Shown here: piece by piece, positions 1,423-10,640 of the stretch
How positions within the stretch are numbered: the stretch's first letter is position 1
Layout of the letters: each line of letters starts with the position of its first letter
Assembly: GCA_016875735.1 (NCBI GenBank)
Contig: VGOW01000037.1
Location: 1 to 37,413 of the forward strand
Source: Chloroflexota bacterium
GTDB lineage: Bacteria > Chloroflexota > Anaerolineae > Anaerolineales > VGOW01
DNA length: 37,413 nucleotides
Direction: 5' to 3'
Notes under the pieces: model-generated
Databases searched by the model: none
What the model was told of the DNA's origin: nothing
Seen by the model: only the letters and a program-made list of their open reading frames with translations
Made by a program: the position numbers and the translations under genes

Positions 1423-3144
1423 ATGACCTTCCCCGACCGCCCCGCCAAACGATGGTTGCCTGCGCCGCCGATCACGCCCGAAGCGGATCGCGCGCTGTCA
1501 GCGCATCATCCCGTCATTCGGCAACTCCTGTTCAATCGAAACATCGACAATGCGGCTGACGCGCAAAAGTACCTCAACGCAGAGCCGCCGGACGATGACG
1601 ACCCCATGCAGTTGGCCGGGATGGGCGAGGCGGTGGAGCGTATCGAGCGGGCCATTGCCCAATGCGAGCCGATTGCCATTTATGGCGACTACGACACCGA
1701 CGGCGTCACGGCCACCGCGCTCATGGTGCAAGTGCTCTCCGCGCTGGGCGCCGATGTTCGGCCCTATATCCCCAACCGTTTCGATGAAGGATACGGACTC
1801 AACAACGATGCGCTGACTCAACTCAAAGACGGCGGAGTCGGGTTGGTGATCACGGTGGACTGTGGCATCCGATCTCCGATGGAAGCCGATCATGCGCGGG
1901 GGATCGGACTCGATCTGATCATCAGCGATCATCACACGGTGGGCGATGATCTGCCGCGCGCGCTGGCTGTCATCAACCCCAAACGCGCCGACGATTCATA
2001 CCCATACCGCGACTTAGCCGGAGTGGGGTTGGCTTACAAAATCGCGCAGGCGCTCATGCGGAAGCGCGAACCCCAACCGATGAACCGCAGTGATGTACTC
2101 GATCTTGTGGCGCTGGGCACGGTGTCCGATCTCGCGCCGCTCACCGGAGAGAATCGATTCTTCGTGCGCAAGGGGCTGGCGGTGATCAATAAAGCCAAGC
2201 GCGAGGGGCTCAAGGCGCTGATCCAAACCTCTCGACTCAAACCGGGCGCGATTGATGCGGGCAACATCGGCTTTTCGCTGGGGCCGAGGCTCAACGCCGC
2301 AGGGCGGCTCAAGTTGGGGTTGGCGGCCTATGAGTTGCTGATCGCCGCCGACGCCTCCAAAGCAAACGAGTTGGCCGGGCAACTCGAAGGGTGGAACCAA
2401 GAGCGACAGAAGCGGACGAAAGAAATTGTCGTAAAGGCGCGCCAGAAAGCCGTGCCAAATGAAGCGGACCCGCCGCCATTATTGTTTGCGGCACTTACAG
2501 TTGCGGAAAGTGAGGCAAACTTTGAGGGAGTTGTCGGTCTAGCGGCAGCGCGGTTAGTTGAGGAGTTTTATCGACCTGCGGTTGTAGCAATCGTAGGTAA
2601 GGATAAGACTAGAGGTTCGGCGCGAAGCATCGGTGACCTTATCATGATTGATGCGCTGACAGAGTGCAAGGACTTATTTGAACGATATGGTGGCCATGCG
2701 ATGGCGGCTGGATTCACCCTTGCGAATGGACATACTGAAGAATTGGCTTACCGATTGCATCAGTACGTGGCGGAGAAACTGGCTGGGAAAGAGCTGAAGC
2801 GTGATTTGAAGATCGATGCGAAAATTGAACTCAAGGACATACCTGAGTTTGCACAGATTCTGAAGCAGTTTGAACCGTGCGGCTATGGGAATCTGACACC
2901 TGTGTTCGCGGTGTACGGTGTCGAGCCGAAAAATCCCAAACCCATTGGCGCAGATGGCACACACCTGCGGTTGGCGTTCAGCGATGGGGAACGTTCGGTG
3001 AATGCTGTAGCATTCAAGCAGGCGTACTGGTTGAAAGACATGCCCAAGCGTGTCGATGTGGTGTTTACGTTGGGGATCGATGAGTGGCAGGGGAAAAGCC
3101 GAGTGCAGATGAATGTGAAGGATATGCGGAGGAGTATTGCGTGA
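1423..3144 (+). CDS. recJ: Single-stranded-DNA-specific exonuclease RecJ
   Basis: RecJ degrades ssDNA 5' to 3' in recombination, mismatch and base-excision repair. The 573-residue protein has the DHH phosphoesterase core: DYDTDG at about residue 89, DCGIRS, and ISDHHT (the DHH motif) near 169-171. The DHHA1 domain has GGHAMAAG near 423, followed by a C-terminal OB-like region. Length is normal for the family. The start is ATG 1423, just after a TATAAT. From about 2430 to the stop, codon use becomes visibly AT-richer (third positions often A or T, an AGA arginine codon), unlike the first two thirds and like the adjacent helicase gene. This suggests a recombinant gene; the frame and motifs are intact. 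Confidence 0.96.
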   Translation: MTFPDRPAKRWLPAPPITPEADRALSAHHPVIRQLLFNRNIDNAADAQKYLNAEPPDDDDPMQLAGMGEAVERIERAIAQCEPIAIYGDYDTDGVTATALMVQVLSALGADVRPYIPNRFDEGYGLNNDALTQLKDGGVGLVITVDCGIRSPMEADHARGIGLDLIISDHHTVGDDLPRALAVINPKRADDSYPYRDLAGVGLAYKIAQALMRKREPQPMNRSDVLDLVALGTVSDLAPLTGENRFFVRKGLAVINKAKREGLKALIQTSRLKPGAIDAGNIGFSLGPRLNAAGRLKLGLAAYELLIAADASKANELAGQLEGWNQERQKRTKEIVVKARQKAVPNEADPPPLLFAALTVAESEANFEGVVGLAAARLVEEFYRPAVVAIVGKDKTRGSARSIGDLIMIDALTECKDLFERYGGHAMAAGFTLANGHTEELAYRLHQYVAEKLAGKELKRDLKIDAKIELKDIPEFAQILKQFEPCGYGNLTPVFAVYGVEPKNPKPIGADGTHLRLAFSDGERSVNAVAFKQAYWLKDMPKRVDVVFTLGIDEWQGKSRVQMNVKDMRRSIA

Positions 3145-3230: not shown

Positions 3231-6200
3231 CTAAAGACTCGTTGCCTGACTCCAGAATGCTTCAAAAAACTCAGGTGCGGTCTTTGACTCAGTGTACTCA
3301 CTCACCATCTTATGATCGCCATAAGCCCCGCTAAAAGGCGGCATATTCAGTGAGTAATTCCGGCTATACAGGTATCGATCGTGCGGTAGATCTTTCTTTG
3401 ACAACACCGCCACTTGAAGGCTAATGCCACGCCGTTTCAGTTCATTTTGGGCCAGGCGCACCCGCTCGGAGGTGAGTTCGGGCGGTCTGCCTTCGAGGGG
3501 CTGCACTTTCTCCGTCGTTGTCAATACCCGAATGTCACGCGCATAAATTTCAGGCTGTTGGCTCACCTCGAGCAAGAGCTCACAGACGTGATCGGTCATA
3601 TAAGGATCCATCCACCAGATGAAGTCTTTGCACGAGGTGAGTAACTTGCGAAGCGTGATGCGATTGTAGTTTCGGTCGTGACGATCTAGCAACGTACCCA
3701 CCACATCGAATTTCTCAGGCTGGCCAGTTCCTATCAGAGGAAGTTCCTCCATGGTCTGTACGACATGGCCCTCTCCGGCACTGACATAATCGGCCAGCCG
3801 GCGGTATATGCTGGACGGCGGCAAACTACGGCAGTATTCATAGTCGCCGACAATTATGAGGGTCGCCCGTGCACGAGTTATAGCAACATTGAGGAGATTT
3901 TGCGTACCGTTTAGCCATTTCAAGCTGCCATCTGTCATCCCCTTCGACAGGACCGGCGAGAAAATCATGAGATGTTTTTCGTCGCCCTGGAATTTGTGGG
4001 CAGTTCCAGCCATTATTCTGTCAGTCAAACGCATCCCTCCATAACTATTGTCCATTAGCCAGGATCGTAACAGCCTCTCTTGCTCACGGTAGGGGGTGAC
4101 GATGCCGAGGCTGGCGCTGGACATGTCATAATGGTCAAGAGCTTCAAGCAGGCGTGGAACGAGAGTTTGAATGATGGCGAGTTCCGCCCGATTGCACAAG
4201 CTACCGCCAGCTGGGTACTCCACCGCTCCACCGATCTTCAACCAGAACATGCCGCTCCCTTTTTCCAAGAATTCATTTGGAATACCAATGCGTTGCATGT
4301 CCGTGCGAATGATTAGCTCGCGAGCATAGAACTCATCGTTCGAGAAATTGACAATGCGAGGATCGGAGCGGTAATGCTCTTTGAGAAGCAGAGTGCCGGG
4401 ACGATTGCCTGCGCTCCGTTGCGCCAGATCGAACAACGACACCTCGCGATACGAAAATACTTCAGGGGCGATTTCAAACTTGGCTACTGCTTCGCGATCA
4501 GCTTCCGGGTAGAGTGTGGCTACATGACGCAGTTGATTTGGATCGCCAACAATTACGACTCGCTTGGCGCGGTATAGTAATGGCAAAGCGGATGGTATAT
4601 CACTCTGGGAAGCCTCGTCCAGAATGACGACATCGAACAGATCGGGAGTTAGCGGGAGATTGCTTTTGGCGGCAAGGTTTGTCGTGGCCCAGACTGGGAA
4701 TACTTTCAGGGCATGCGAGAGGTTCTCTTCTTCGGAGGCTTTGAGATTACTATACTGAAGACGATCGAAGGTCTCCTCGCCTGACAGTTCGGTCAACTGT
4801 TTGACAGCAGAAATGTAACGCGAAGTTCTCTGGAGTGTCTCGGTTCCTAATGCTTTTACAGATTCGATCCAACTTTGTCGAACAATCTCCGCGCCGACAC
4901 GATATAGTTCAGCATTGATCTCTCTGGTTTGTTGCGCCAACTCTTGTTGGGTGGGGAGCTGTTCGATCTCGTTCTTAAGGCGTGTAAGACCAGCTGTCGC
5001 TGTCCACAATGCAATGATATTGAGCCACTTGGTGAGATGCCCAATGATAGCTGGCACACTGGCCATTTCCTTCAATACCCATAGGCGCTTTTGTTCACTT
5101 GCCGCTATTGACTTGAATACCGCTAAGACACCAAGCCCGTCAACATTGCCATCAATTCTTGCGTTGATGCGTTTGATCAAATGGTCGCGCTGAGCCATCA
5201 TGTCCGTCAGACGACTCCGATAACCCTCAAATAATGGCCGAATTGAGTCAGTGTCTCCGATACCGACTTCGATCTTGCCTACATCTTGCTGGATCGAGTC
5301 AGGGAGATGTGCGAGTGTTGTAGCCAATGTTGTGCGCGCTGCCTCGAGGCCTTGCCGCATATGGATCAGGCGCAGACTGGCCACGGCGGTTTCCAAAGTC
5401 TGTTCGGCATCGCGACAGATTTCAACAAGTTTGGGGATGTCAGCTAGGTTGGGTGAGGATGGTAAAGACCAATTCAACCCTGATGCTTGCTGAAAACCAG
5501 CAATCTGTCTTACCAGATCACGAGCTGGATTTGCAAGACCGAGCCAGGCCAGTATCTTGATGAGCACATTGGGTGGGTGCAAGACAAAAGCCCGTGCTTT
5601 CTGGTGGAGTTGAGCGATATTTGAGGCTAGTGGTTCGAGTTGCTCAAGACTCATTCGGGCAATGATTGTATCGGTGTCTGTCTTGAGGTTTGTTGGTAAT
5701 GATTCAAGGCTTCGCTCAAATAGCGTATTTTGCTCGCGCACCATCAGACTCAATCGATTTGCTTCTGCTTGACGGTCAAGTGCAGATAACAACGTTATCC
5801 ATGTATCAGTGTACTTGGTAAGATCCTCCAGCGACTCGAAGTTGGGTACCGTCAAGAATTGGTTGCCAAGAGATCCCCACTGGTCTTCGAATCGTCTGAG
5901 TCCCATCAACATTGGCGAGTGAACCGTGCTCCCTCTGATGGTGTGAGTCAGTTCATCGATCAAGCCGTCTTGCTGGTCGCGGAGAGCGAGAGCGATCACG
6001 CGCTGAGACGAGATAGCAGATTGCAGATGATTGAGTTCGTCCTTATTATAGGGTGGCGCACAGGTCTCAGCCAGCTCAGACACTTTCTTGGGCAAGATTT
6101 TGCGCAGATCGTCGCGTTCAATGGAGTATGAATGAACCAAGCCGACCATCTCCCGCACTTGGTGGAGGAGTTTATCAGCCCGTTCTAGTGCTTTCTTCAA

Positions 6201-7754
6201 CTCAACGAATTTCTCGTGTTGAGCTAATGGGCTGACATTGCTTGTAAAGATAGTCACCTGTTCCAAGGCCGACAGCATTCGAGAGACTGCGAGCTTGCGA
6301 ATCTCACGATTGCCTGTACGTACTGCCCCAGTGAAACCGATTTCATCCAACAAACGATCCATCACTACATCTACAGCTTTATTGTTGCGGCTAGCGAATA
6401 GGACAGTCTGTCCATGTAACGCCATCTGAGCAATCAAATTTAGAATAAGCTGAGATTTTCCAGTGCCAGGTGGGCCGGTGACAATCGTAACAGGCTCTGA
6501 TTCGGCGGCTGAGATGACTTGACGTTGTCGATCGTTCGCGGGGGTAACGTAGATATGAGTATCTTGGATATAAGGCACAGACTGAGGATAGTTGTGCTCG
6601 GGGAGCGTAGCAAGTAGTTGTTTGAGTGCCCTCGGGGCGCTCTCCCACTTCTGAGGCGAGGCCAACTCCCGCAGTTCGGCAATCAGGTTCGCAGTTGCAA
6701 TGCTGGGCTTTACCCAGAACAGACACGGTGAATAGCAAAGCGTTTTCGGTGGCAACACCGTAGCATTGCCTTCCCAAATTGTACGGGCGAATGGCCATCC
6801 CAAAATCTCTGATAGCCGATGAACGAGGAATTCCTCGAGCGCTGCCGGTAGAGGCTGATTGCTTGTTGGTTGGATATCGGCACACTGCCTGAGAAGTGCC
6901 TCTATCTCTTCGTCAGTCAAATGTAGGTGGTTAAGTGCGGCATAACTGATTTCGAAATCCGAAGGGATCAATTGGATCTGTTTGCCAGTGCTTTCGATGT
7001 TGACAGTCGCAATTGCCAGCGGTGCGAGCTTGTCGCGCTCGGCAACGAGTAAGGGGTAACCCAAACATAATTGTTGGTCACTGCGAGTGCGGCCAATACG
7101 GACAAACTTTGATAGTGACGATGGCTGTCCATTATGTTCGGCTTCAAATTCCAGATTGGTCATTCCTGCCATGAACCGATGAACATGCTCCGGTTCCAAG
7201 TGAAAGAAGTGAACAGATCTGTAAGGATCCTCAATAATGTATTGTTGGCGGTTTTCCCGAATTAGGCACTTGGCGTAATATCCTGCCAGTCGAGCCCAAT
7301 GGTCAGCAGACTGGACTTGCAGAAATCGCTCACGCGCTTGGTTGGCTACTGATGAGGGCGGTGCTGTGAACTTCCATGTACTTGACATGGATCTACTGTG
7401 CACGGTCGGAGTATCTTTCATTGCATTCCTATGAGTGCTGGTGGGCTGTGGAGCTAGTGGATCCAATGGCTCCCTAAAATCATCAGAGTCACTCCGAGCC
7501 GTGATATTTGGCGTGTTTTTCGGCGAAGGGATATTACCGTCATCCGGAAGGGGCACACAGTTCAAAATGCTGGATATATGAAAGTGCCTTTCATCGCTAC
7601 GCAAATAGCAGTAGGCGCGAAACTTGGTGTTGGTTTCCCAGTTGAGAGGCGCAATCTTACGGTCAGTGATATCGCCCCGAAGGTCCCGATACTGTACCTG
7701 TAATAGTTTTCGATTGGAGATAGCCCAATTTATGAGCTCTGCAACAGAGGGCAT
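3231..7754 (-). CDS. WYL-like / SF1 helicase (COG1112 type) / PLD-like fusion, Mokosh type II-like
   Basis: About 1,507 residues. Residues 1-70 resemble a WYL domain (INWAISNRKLLQVQYR, then DRKIAPL and the tail FHISSI). A superfamily 1 helicase follows: Walker A GPPGTGKS near 427, Walker B VVILDEAS near 1045, GDPNQL, TPYREQ, HKFQGDE, and motif VI NVAITRAR near 1288. A roughly 550-residue helical insertion separates motifs Ia and II. The last 150 residues look PLD-like, with LPHDRYLYSRNY near 1456; this is H-x-R rather than a full HxKxxxxD motif. COG1112 helicase plus PLD in one chain is the architecture described for Mokosh type II (MkoC) anti-phage defence; the WYL-like module is unusual. 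ATG 7754 is chosen because GGAAG lies 8 nt upstream; GTG 7772 is an alternative. Composition suggests transfer. Confidence 0.75.
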   Translation of the reverse strand: MPSVAELINWAISNRKLLQVQYRDLRGDITDRKIAPLNWETNTKFRAYCYLRSDERHFHISSILNCVPLPDDGNIPSPKNTPNITARSDSDDFREPLDPLAPQPTSTHRNAMKDTPTVHSRSMSSTWKFTAPPSSVANQARERFLQVQSADHWARLAGYYAKCLIRENRQQYIIEDPYRSVHFFHLEPEHVHRFMAGMTNLEFEAEHNGQPSSLSKFVRIGRTRSDQQLCLGYPLLVAERDKLAPLAIATVNIESTGKQIQLIPSDFEISYAALNHLHLTDEEIEALLRQCADIQPTSNQPLPAALEEFLVHRLSEILGWPFARTIWEGNATVLPPKTLCYSPCLFWVKPSIATANLIAELRELASPQKWESAPRALKQLLATLPEHNYPQSVPYIQDTHIYVTPANDRQRQVISAAESEPVTIVTGPPGTGKSQLILNLIAQMALHGQTVLFASRNNKAVDVVMDRLLDEIGFTGAVRTGNREIRKLAVSRMLSALEQVTIFTSNVSPLAQHEKFVELKKALERADKLLHQVREMVGLVHSYSIERDDLRKILPKKVSELAETCAPPYNKDELNHLQSAISSQRVIALALRDQQDGLIDELTHTIRGSTVHSPMLMGLRRFEDQWGSLGNQFLTVPNFESLEDLTKYTDTWITLLSALDRQAEANRLSLMVREQNTLFERSLESLPTNLKTDTDTIIARMSLEQLEPLASNIAQLHQKARAFVLHPPNVLIKILAWLGLANPARDLVRQIAGFQQASGLNWSLPSSPNLADIPKLVEICRDAEQTLETAVASLRLIHMRQGLEAARTTLATTLAHLPDSIQQDVGKIEVGIGDTDSIRPLFEGYRSRLTDMMAQRDHLIKRINARIDGNVDGLGVLAVFKSIAASEQKRLWVLKEMASVPAIIGHLTKWLNIIALWTATAGLTRLKNEIEQLPTQQELAQQTREINAELYRVGAEIVRQSWIESVKALGTETLQRTSRYISAVKQLTELSGEETFDRLQYSNLKASEEENLSHALKVFPVWATTNLAAKSNLPLTPDLFDVVILDEASQSDIPSALPLLYRAKRVVIVGDPNQLRHVATLYPEADREAVAKFEIAPEVFSYREVSLFDLAQRSAGNRPGTLLLKEHYRSDPRIVNFSNDEFYARELIIRTDMQRIGIPNEFLEKGSGMFWLKIGGAVEYPAGGSLCNRAELAIIQTLVPRLLEALDHYDMSSASLGIVTPYREQERLLRSWLMDNSYGGMRLTDRIMAGTAHKFQGDEKHLMIFSPVLSKGMTDGSLKWLNGTQNLLNVAITRARATLIIVGDYEYCRSLPPSSIYRRLADYVSAGEGHVVQTMEELPLIGTGQPEKFDVVGTLLDRHDRNYNRITLRKLLTSCKDFIWWMDPYMTDHVCELLLEVSQQPEIYARDIRVLTTTEKVQPLEGRPPELTSERVRLAQNELKRRGISLQVAVLSKKDLPHDRYLYSRNYSLNMPPFSGAYGDHKMVSEYTESKTAPEFFEAFWSQATSL

Positions 7755-7821
7755 AGGGAGGCTTCCAGCCACGACCAGCGTTAAGTCAGACTATCAACAA
7801 TGGACGCCGTAGAGTGAGGAA

Positions 7822-7847: not shown

Positions 7848-10640
7848 TCATGTGCGCCTCACACTATTGCCATTCGGTTGCGGGTGCTGATCTGAGGCGC
7901 CGAATAGGAAAACGAGGGTCGTGAGCAGGCTGAGGGCGGAAATCATCGCGCCGAGTTTGAGGGAGAAGGGGTCGAAGCGAAATTCGACGGTGTGGGTTCC
8001 GGCAGGGAGGGCGACGGCGCGAAAGAGGCCGTAGGCGGTTTCGATGGGGGCGGGCTGATCGTCCACTGCGGCGAGCCAGCCGGGATAATTGGTATCGGTG
8101 AGAATCAAGTAGCCGGGCGTGTCGGAAGAGGTTTGGATGAGGACATGCTCGGTTTCGTATTTAAGGATGAAGGATGAAGGAGGAAGGATGAATGGGGAGA
8201 GAGGCTCGGCGAGCGACGAAACGACGAAGGCGCGAGGGAGGGTGTTGAGGTTTTCGTACACTTTCACATCGCCGGAGTGAGCGAGGCGGTAGGGGCCGAG
8301 GGTGAGGGAGTGAAAGGTGTCGGTGCGTTCGTCGATGAGGCTTGCGCCGCGAATGACGAGGGCGGTGGGGGTGAGGATGACGATTTGTTCGACGGCGGCG
8401 GGCCCACTCCAGCGCAGACGGATGGCAGGTTGCGATGGATCGAATGTGATGGGCGCGGTGACGGTCTCCCCCGTGTCGAGGGTGATTTGCGCGACTCCCG
8501 ATTGCGAAAGGTCGTCGAGAACGAGTCCGAGCGCGGTCGCTTGAAAGTTGGGAATGCGGGCGAGGGTGAGCGGCGAGGGTGAGGTGACGGTGGCGGTGAG
8601 TCCGAGATCATAAAATACGTTGTCGAGCCATGCGTCGCCGGTTTTGTCGGTGATGATCCAACGGGTGTTGGTGAGGCTGAGGAGATCGTTGGCGGGGACG
8701 GTTCTAAGGAATTGGCGGAGGCGGCCATCGGTGTTGGGGGGAACGTCGCCGAATTGTTTGGCGAACTCGGCGTAGGCGCGGAGGGGAAGGATGCCGCCAT
8801 CGTAGCCATCGACGGAGGGGATGCGCCATGTGAGCGGAAGGTTGGGCGAGAGCACTTCTTTGTGTTTGGCGGCGATGATGGCATCGTACACGGCGTCGGG
8901 CGGGAGTTGCGAATCCCATTCGCGGCGCAGTTCGGCGAGGTCGCCGGGATCGAATTCGAGTTGCGAAAGGGAGAGGAAGCGGTCGCGTGGAGCGTAGAGC
9001 GTGGGGCGTGGGGCGGCGAGGAGTTGAGTCATCGCCGGGCGAATGGAGGAATATGTGTCGGGGGTGGTGAGGTGATTGGGGGGGAGGGGGGAGGAGGCGA
9101 TGAATAATTCCAAAATTCCAAAGCCAAAAATAAAAAATGAAAAGCATGAGGCGTGGGGCGTGGAGCGTGGAGCGTGAAGCGTGGGGCGTGAAGCGCGGGA
9201 CGTGAGGCGTGAGGCGATAAACATGGTGACGAGAGGGGTGAGCCAGAGGGCGAGGTCGAGAGGGGAGGGGAGGCCGAGGGGGCCGAGTTCGCCGGGAGGG
9301 GTGATGGAGGCGGAGAGGAAGGAAAGGGAGATGAGAAGGATCAGCGGGAGGCTGAGGGATGCGAATTGCCGATGGCTGATGGCTGATGGCTGATCGCTGA
9401 TTCGTTGGAGGCCGACTCCGGCGAGGAGGGCGGAGCCGAGTGACCAAAGGACGAGCCAGCGGGCGGGGACGCGGAAGAAGCTGAAGCCGGGAAGTTTGGC
9501 GAGCAAAAGGTAGAGAGGGTTGTAGCCGCCGAAGGCGAAGAGGAGGCCGAGGGTGGAGAGCGAAATAGCGAATAGCAGTTGGCGGTTAGCGATTAGCGAA
9601 TAGCGATTGACGATCGCAGACTGAATTGGGAACGTGGCGAGGAGGAGCGGGAGGATTCCGATGTGGGCGATGAATTCGGAGAAGATGACGCGGCTGTAGC
9701 CGGGAAGGAGGGCGCGGCCAAGCAGGAGGGGGTTGAGGGAGAATGAGACGGCTTCGTTCAACGGGAGACCGCCGCCGCGAAGGGAGAGGCGCGAGAGTTC
9801 GAGGGTGGGGATGAGTTGAACGGCGGAGAGGGCGAAAGCGAGGATAACTCCGAATGTCCAAAAGCCGAACTTGAAAAGCGTGGAGCGTGGAGCGTGGAGG
9901 GTGGAGGGTGGAGGGTGGAGGGAAGAGAGAAGAGCGATGAGGGCCGTGAGGGCGCAGGCGACGAGGGTGATGAAGGCGGTTTGGGTGTGGCCGGCGGTGA
10001 GTTGGAGGGCGATGAACAATGAAAGTAATGAACAATGAACAATGGTGGCTGGGTGGTTAGGTGGTTGGGGGGTTGGGTGGTTAGGTGGTTGGGTGGTTGG
10101 GTGGTTAGGTGGTTGGGTGGTTGGGTGGTTGGGTAGTTGGGTGAGGCGGATTGTGGAGAGGAGGGCGAATGGAAGCCAAGCGAGGCCTTGCAGTTGGTTG
10201 ACGTGTTCGACCTGCGCGGTGAGGTAGCCGCCGAAGGCGAAGACGGCGGCGGCGAATGCGGCAGGCATCGGTTCGAGATCGAAGGCGCAGCGGGCGAGGG
10301 CATAGGTTCCCCATGCGGCGATGATGACGTGAGCAATGATGCTGATCTTCACGGCCACCGGCGCAGGGAAAAAGATGAGCGGCCAGTTGAGAGGATAGAA
10401 GACTCCGGCTTGCGAGTTGGCGAGGAAGGGCACGCCCATGAAGAGATACGAATTCCACAACGGCAAGTGACCGGCGAGCAGGGATTGGGCGCGGTAGTCC
10501 CAATAGGGATAGAAGTAGAGCAGGGTATCGCCGCGAGCGAAGATGAGGTTGGTGAAAGCGGCTTGACGATAGAAGAGGAGGGCGAGGGCGGCCAGCGCGG
10601 GAAGGATGAAGGAGGAAGGATGAAGAGTGAAGCGGCGCAT
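7848..10640 (-). CDS. YfhO-like polytopic membrane protein with in-frame repeat insertions
   Basis: A 930-residue membrane protein. After the first helix it has FARGDTLLYFYPYW and LLAGHLPLWNSYLFMG, typical of the YfhO family. YfhO proteins are GT-C-like membrane proteins linked to glycosylation of cell-envelope polymers. Many helices follow, then a long extracytoplasmic region, and near the C-terminus the stretch YPGWLAAVDDQPAPIETA and the LPAGTHTVEFRFDP segment common in this family. At least eight places encode low-complexity text made by short tandem repeats, for example PNHPTTQP copies from 10044-10143, and the N-terminus itself (FTLHPSSFIL). The frame stays open throughout. The start at ATG 10640 lies in repeat-derived DNA, so the true start may differ. 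Confidence 0.8.
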   Translation of the reverse strand: MRRFTLHPSSFILPALAALALLFYRQAAFTNLIFARGDTLLYFYPYWDYRAQSLLAGHLPLWNSYLFMGVPFLANSQAGVFYPLNWPLIFFPAPVAVKISIIAHVIIAAWGTYALARCAFDLEPMPAAFAAAVFAFGGYLTAQVEHVNQLQGLAWLPFALLSTIRLTQLPNHPTTQPPNHPTTQPPNHPTPQPPNHPATIVHCSLLSLFIALQLTAGHTQTAFITLVACALTALIALLSSLHPPPSTLHAPRSTLFKFGFWTFGVILAFALSAVQLIPTLELSRLSLRGGGLPLNEAVSFSLNPLLLGRALLPGYSRVIFSEFIAHIGILPLLLATFPIQSAIVNRYSLIANRQLLFAISLSTLGLLFAFGGYNPLYLLLAKLPGFSFFRVPARWLVLWSLGSALLAGVGLQRISDQPSAISHRQFASLSLPLILLISLSFLSASITPPGELGPLGLPSPLDLALWLTPLVTMFIASRLTSRASRPTLHAPRSTPHASCFSFFIFGFGILELFIASSPLPPNHLTTPDTYSSIRPAMTQLLAAPRPTLYAPRDRFLSLSQLEFDPGDLAELRREWDSQLPPDAVYDAIIAAKHKEVLSPNLPLTWRIPSVDGYDGGILPLRAYAEFAKQFGDVPPNTDGRLRQFLRTVPANDLLSLTNTRWIITDKTGDAWLDNVFYDLGLTATVTSPSPLTLARIPNFQATALGLVLDDLSQSGVAQITLDTGETVTAPITFDPSQPAIRLRWSGPAAVEQIVILTPTALVIRGASLIDERTDTFHSLTLGPYRLAHSGDVKVYENLNTLPRAFVVSSLAEPLSPFILPPSSFILKYETEHVLIQTSSDTPGYLILTDTNYPGWLAAVDDQPAPIETAYGLFRAVALPAGTHTVEFRFDPFSLKLGAMISALSLLTTLVFLFGASDQHPQPNGNSVRRT
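8159..8196. repeat. Heptamer repeat AAGGATG inside the YfhO-like gene
   Basis: Copies of AAGGATG/AAGGAGG in 7-bp register, encoding a Pro-Ser-Ser-Phe-Ile-Leu pattern in the minus-strand protein. The same family occurs at 10600-10628 and 27926-27953. Confidence 0.75.
8984..9018. repeat. Heptamer repeat CGTGGAG/CGTGGGG inside the YfhO-like gene
   Basis: About four degenerate 7-bp copies, in frame in the minus-strand protein (RPTLYAPR). Confidence 0.7.
9144..9219. repeat. Longer CGTGRRG heptamer array inside the YfhO-like gene
   Basis: About ten degenerate copies of a 7-bp unit (CGTGGAG, CGTGAAG, CGTGGGG, CGTGAGG). Related arrays are at 8984-9018, 9880-9925 and 11115-11155. Confidence 0.8.
9366..9400. 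repeat. Heptamer repeat GATGGCT inside the YfhO-like gene
   Basis: Three exact GATGGCT copies and a degenerate one in 7-bp register, encoding SDQPSAIS in the minus-strand protein. Confidence 0.75.
9556..9612. repeat. Heptamer repeat AGCGATT/AGCGAAT inside the YfhO-like gene
   Basis: Degenerate 7-bp copies that encode a LIANRQLLFAIS-like stretch. The same family is intergenic at 29340-29440 and 36872-36935. Confidence 0.7.
9880..9926. repeat. Heptamer repeat CGTGGAG/GGTGGAG inside the YfhO-like gene
   Basis: Six or seven copies in 7-bp register, encoding LHPPPSTLHAPRSTL in the minus-strand protein. Confidence 0.75.
10044..10143. repeat. Octamer tandem array TGGTTGGG/TGGTTAGG inside the YfhO-like gene
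   Basis: About twelve copies of an 8-bp unit. Because 8 is not a multiple of 3, the protein repeats every 24 nt as the 8-residue text PNHPTTQP. It lies in a loop after the second or third membrane helix and leaves the frame open. Confidence 0.85.
10600..10628. repeat. Heptamer repeat GGATGAA at the 5' end of the YfhO-like gene
   Basis: AAGGATG/AAGGAGG copies overlap the N-terminal codons of the minus-strand gene. Confidence 0.65.

Follow-up and report, generated by a model that had tools for sequence, protein, structure and literature searches.

A WYL-helicase protein with a C-terminal HDR domain in Chloroflexota: a probable undescribed variant of helicase-nuclease phage defence

The window (the whole stretch of 37,413 nucleotides analysed, contig VGOW01000037.1 of a Chloroflexota bacterium) raises the question of what a single large helicase gene is doing between two housekeeping genes, and whether it is a defence gene against phages, as a reading of the sequence alone had proposed. 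The answer developed below is that the gene is a recent acquisition, that its product joins a WYL domain, a UPF1-like helicase and a non-canonical C-terminal domain in one chain, and that its defence role is well supported, though indirectly, by the neighbourhoods of its homologues.

A single-gene insertion and its scattered homologues

The complete open reading frame (positions 3231..7772, minus strand; all domain and motif coordinates given below lie on this strand) encodes 1513 amino acids from a GTG start at 7772 and is sustained over its full length by homologues of 33-46% identity; an alternative ATG start at residue 7 (7754) agrees equally well with the starts of the homologues. From the N-terminus onward the protein comprises a WYL domain, an N-terminal domain of the helicase family, a superfamily 1 (SF1) helicase with a long insertion, and a C-terminal domain named here after its HDR motif. 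The gene is flanked by recJ (1423-3144, plus strand) and, convergent with the latter, by the gene of a YfhO-like membrane protein (7848-10640, minus strand). Within this membrane protein lies a proline-rich repeat tract, (NHPTTQPP)n, which is unexpected for its family and resembles a minisatellite-like insertion.

In all four genomes of the same genus that were examined (G318, G412, G424 and G435), recJ and the yfhO-like gene adjoin directly, with 78-151 bases between the respective protein matches; in consequence, the segment 3145..7847 is a 4.7-kb insertion of a single gene. The base composition deviates likewise: the GC content of the gene is 50.6% (GC3 53%), compared with 57-65% (GC3 66-79%) in the other genes of the window. 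The lower GC content and the position among housekeeping genes that the sequence-only reading had pointed out, along with its single-gene assignment, are thus borne out: the gene was recently inserted and is foreign to this genome. Searches for a tRNA, an Rfam family or structured RNA, a flanking repeat or an integrase that might mark the insertion yielded no match.

Homologues over most of the length were found six times, exclusively in Chloroflexota (G419, G732, G598, G652, G656 and a plasmid of Leptolinea sp. HRD-7, whose genome is apparently the same as G1044), with identities of 46% (G419), 45% (G732) and 33% (Leptolinea). Besides the query, the family occurs in 4 of the 301 genomes of the order and in one more among 396 of the class, and sampling 400 genomes of the phylum added no other; its distribution is very patchy. 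Viral contigs contained no relatives, and phage records gave weak helicase matches only. The Leptolinea copy (L034:14986-19389, plasmid AP024711.1) is interrupted by one in-frame TAA and annotated as two genes, and is therefore probably decaying.

The WYL domain and the helicase

The N-terminal WYL domain (residues 11-85, 7518..7742) scores just below the 21.8-bit cut-off of PF13280 when the whole protein is searched (residues 11-71, E=5e-4, 20.4 bits) and above it when the isolated segment is used (E=1e-5, 25.7 bits). PF13280 matches all eight family segments (best 5.6e-9), the family profile matches solved WYL proteins in the PDB (PafBC at 1.9e-8, also CapW and BrxR), and the PADLOC WYL profile is matched at 5e-10. 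With profiles built from the family itself, the domain was detected in every homologue with an intact N-terminus; the G419 homologue (L051:3668-8395) carries two WYL domains in tandem (residues 4-76 and 96-172 of its open frame). An AlphaFold2 model of the N-terminal 425 residues was unusable (pLDDT 33). Known WYL proteins are regulators gated by a ligand or by single-stranded DNA, and within defence loci the WYL domain is familiar chiefly from proteins that regulate transcription.

The WYL domain is followed by a domain of approximately 250 residues (152-405, 6558..7319) that belongs to the helicase family rather than to this protein in particular, as it matches the profile of three COG1112 helicases without WYL or HDR domain (L033, L032 and a Rhizobium plasmid hit, H2; hhalign P=8.5e-10). 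Its identification as DUF4011 was considered and rejected (hhalign against DUF4011 proteins, P=0.22).

The helicase itself (residues 411-1335) is complete and UPF1-like (COG1112, SF1): all main motifs are present, and SEN1 and UPF1 are among the nearest solved relatives. Its first RecA-like part (residues 411-540, 6153..6542; AAA_11, PF13086, 4e-29) includes Walker A (residues 433-440, 6453-6476) and motif Ia (6363-6395), and the remaining part (residues 1001-1335, 3768..4772; AAA_12, PF13087, 9e-29) contains DEASQ (residues 1052-1056, 4605-4619), GDPNQLRH (residues 1076-1083, 4524-4547), motif V (residues 1256-1265, 3978-4007) and motif VI (residues 1294-1302, 3867-3893). Approximately 580 residues separate motif Ia from motif II, most of them contributed by a poorly conserved insertion (residues 541-1000, 4773..6152) that is presumed to form a helical stalk. 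The WYL-like N-terminus, the complete COG1112-type helicase and the very long insertion claimed in advance have accordingly all been confirmed, the last with regard to its size.

The C-terminal HDR domain

The C-terminal domain (residues 1338-1513, 3234..3761) was detected, again with family-built profiles, in every homologue whose C-terminus is intact. In the five intact C-termini, which are 34-55% identical to one another, the motifs HDR (residues 1464-1466, 3375..3383), NMPP, GAxGxH and VSEYT are invariant, as are the polar residues H127, D128, R129, N139, H150, S154 and E155 (domain numbering). The canonical PLD motif HxKxxxxD is absent from all five: its lysine is replaced by arginine, and the position of its aspartate (1471) is occupied by R, Q or S. 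HDR in place of HxKxxxxD had been read correctly from the sequence; the PLD-like nature of the domain, claimed at the same time, stood to a moderate degree and by an indirect route only, as neither a Pfam family, PLD included, nor, by sequence, a PLD structure of the PDB was matched by the domain itself.

The route leads through the NCBIfam profile VPA1262_N, which matches four of the five family members (best 1.2e-6, profile positions 330-428) and, with positions 320-474, also an open frame of 1677 aa in G172 at its C-terminal end (1.6e-6), where an HDR motif is followed by GTS. Relatives of this second type of HDR domain are found at the C-terminal ends of large proteins encoded on plasmids, whose annotation is hypothetical or ATP-binding, and of one NACHT-type protein. 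The best PDB match of the profile of these STAND-type HDR domains is a phosphatidylserine synthase, an enzyme of the PLD superfamily; although weak (E=0.12), this match places HDR on the HxK motif of the enzyme, and a second stretch covers the DPYF strand. On account of the VPA1262 link and of this alignment, the C-terminal domain is interpreted, with moderate confidence, as a non-canonical PLD-like domain. A direct profile comparison between the HDR domain and the STAND HDR domains gave P=0.007 (hhalign), a score reached by none of 200 column shuffles but by 16 of 200 block shuffles, so that most of the signal resides in the HDR motif itself; compared with one ordinary tandem-HKD PLD protein, the domain gave no match.

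Whether the HDR domain is catalytic is uncertain, because the lysine is an arginine and the aspartate is lost. The domain might instead bind nucleic acid or membrane, as has been proposed for the PLD-like domain of eukaryotic MITD1, in an otherwise identical defence protein, the effector then being the helicase or a translocation-driven displacement. MITD1 ranked second in the Foldseek list obtained with a single-sequence AlphaFold2 model of the C-terminal domain; in a STAND protein encoded near the G652 homologue, the motif has degenerated further, to HER. The model, however, is poor (pLDDT 54) and the Foldseek and VIA searches with it returned a mixture of folds (CD38, Arf GTPases and MITD1, the latter being the only PLD-superfamily entry in these lists), so that the rank of MITD1 means little. 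In addition, H, D, R, N, the second H and E are strongly conserved among domains of 34-55% identity, which suggests a retained active site and leaves the non-catalytic alternative rather unlikely.

A further alternative is that the protein is a divergent Mokosh type II protein to which a WYL domain was added, as the sequence-only reading had suggested from the published layout of helicase and then PLD in one protein (PMC11672841). The order of the domains agrees, as the query, too, is encoded by one gene and has its PLD-like domain C-terminal to a COG1112 SF1 helicase; among the PADLOC profiles, MkoC matches it best (9e-62, over helicase domain 2), and the whole-protein alignment extends to profile position 1075 of 1136, beyond the end of the helicase near 950-970, where relatives without HDR domain stop. 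Against this, related helicases without WYL or HDR reach 1e-41 to 1e-79 with the same profile, and the MkoC score of the query therefore largely stems from the shared helicase; other Chloroflexota genomes with MkoC matches at E<=1e-45 were also matched over the helicase positions only, and the alignment of the homologue L050 ends at position 965. The isolated HDR domain of the five members gave no match to any MkoC profile at E up to 5, and it differs from Mokosh II in its motif, as does the query in its N-terminal WYL domain. The MkoC search proposed beforehand gave a match for the whole protein and none for the isolated HDR domain, and a membership in Mokosh II is considered unlikely. The Mokosh I arrangement (STK- or NERD-kinase, helicase and a separate PLD gene) is not present either: the neighbours in the window are recJ and yfhO, and kinases occur near the G652 homologue only.

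Defence context and comparison with known systems

Since the neighbourhood of the gene in the window consists of housekeeping genes only, the defence context comes from the homologues, of which two have informative neighbourhoods. The G652 homologue adjoins PsyrT (2e-268) and PsyrA (1e-94), and the same island encodes DrmD (7e-112), a DrmMI/type IIG-like methyltransferase, NERD- and STK-kinases, and also the NACHT/STAND protein with HER at the motif, which has an HDR-class domain of its own at the C-terminus. The G656 homologue follows the end of a methyltransferase that is 31% identical to the one in G652 (4e-15). Furthermore, the Leptolinea homologue is plasmid-borne, and an IS4-type transposase sequence lies near the G419 homologue. 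The inspection of homologue neighbourhoods that had been recommended thus places one copy beside PsyrTA and DISARM-type genes and another beside a methyltransferase, and it is these, not the genes of the window, that uphold the proposed defence candidacy; a defence role of the protein is well supported, albeit indirectly.

As observations in their own right, a single contig of G652, a genome of the same order (C41; loci L053 and L074), unites PsyrTA, DrmD, the methyltransferase, NERD-kinases, the STAND protein and the WYL-helicase, and large proteins with a related HDR-type C-terminal domain are encoded at L074:4145-9085 (G652; NACHT/AAA N-terminus, HER motif) and at L073 (G172); this domain, which lacks a Pfam match, may be an undescribed and widely shared effector. 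One of the related COG1112 helicases, whose C-terminus looks like a nuclease (L031:1-2225, from a gut MAG), lies among nadD-like, transketolase and ftsE/ftsX-like genes, and the wider helicase family is thus not confined to defence islands.

That the helicase serves the maintenance of nucleic acids, in repair or RNA processing, and is mobile by chance and unrelated to phage defence, is quite improbable, given its absence from all four congeners examined and from most of the order, the PsyrTA/DISARM-type neighbourhood of a homologue and the broken copy in Leptolinea, even though its core is UPF1/SEN1/DNA2-like, its insertion site lies beside recJ and some of the related helicases that lack WYL and HDR reside among housekeeping genes.

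We therefore favour, with somewhat better than even confidence, the view that the gene was acquired horizontally and that its product acts alone against phages as a UPF1-like helicase joined to an effector, probably representing a variant of helicase-nuclease defence that has yet to be described. If the WYL domain behaves like those of known proteins, it would bind single-stranded DNA or an oligonucleotide as its cue and gate the ATP-driven helicase. The latter, as inferred from UPF1-like motors, would track along single-stranded nucleic acid of the phage, and the HDR domain would then act as effector; in all likelihood this domain would be a phosphodiesterase whose active site is a variant one and which either cuts nucleic acid or poisons the cell. 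The stronger version, a new type of defence, is put forward tentatively: single-stranded nucleic acid derived from the phage would occupy the WYL domain, which would allosterically license the UPF1-like motor to fire a non-canonical, HDR-bearing PLD-like effector common to helicases and NACHT/STAND proteins. As the proposed sensor, motor and PLD-like effector are united in one chain, their coupling is directly testable in a single protein.

With regard to novelty, fusions of WYL with Superfamily-I helicases were listed by Makarova et al. in 2014, with WYL proposed as a defence ligand sensor (PMC4012209), and this pairing is therefore not new; in the main text of that paper, no PLD-like domain is named. 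The triple combination of WYL, helicase and HDR domain was not encountered in the libraries or the literature searched, and as an architecture it may be new. Within the fetched loci, the WYL and HDR profiles had no match in other open reading frames, the COG1112 relatives included as far as the loci reached.

The helicase core and the N-terminal domain (the latter matched by profile in three cases) are shared by the COG1112 helicases L002, L031-L033 and the Rhizobium plasmid hit H2, which differ from the query by the absence of WYL and HDR domain; L002 and L031-L033 instead exhibit a C-terminus that, judged by eye, looks nuclease-like (Vsr/DUF559 type), and L033 has no insertion of the size found in the query. 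The architecture of the query further suggests an exchange of terminal domains among COG1112 helicases. The Hhe/DUF4011 helicases are comparable as very large single-protein COG1112 helicases with an antiphage role, but by profile comparison their DUF4011 region is unrelated to the N-terminal domain of the query. CoCoNuT type III (CnuH), in which a UPF1-like helicase is combined with an effector nuclease of the Vsr or PLD type (PMC11090510), shares the joining of such a helicase to an effector, but requires a CnuB/McrB GTPase, which is present neither beside the gene in the window nor in the G652 locus. The NACHT/STAND proteins with an HDR C-terminus and the VPA1262 family, finally, possess a STAND-type ATPase instead of a helicase and no WYL domain, but carry a related HDR-type domain recognized by a common NCBIfam profile, which suggests that one effector domain of the HDR type is common to helicase-based and NACHT/STAND-based defence.
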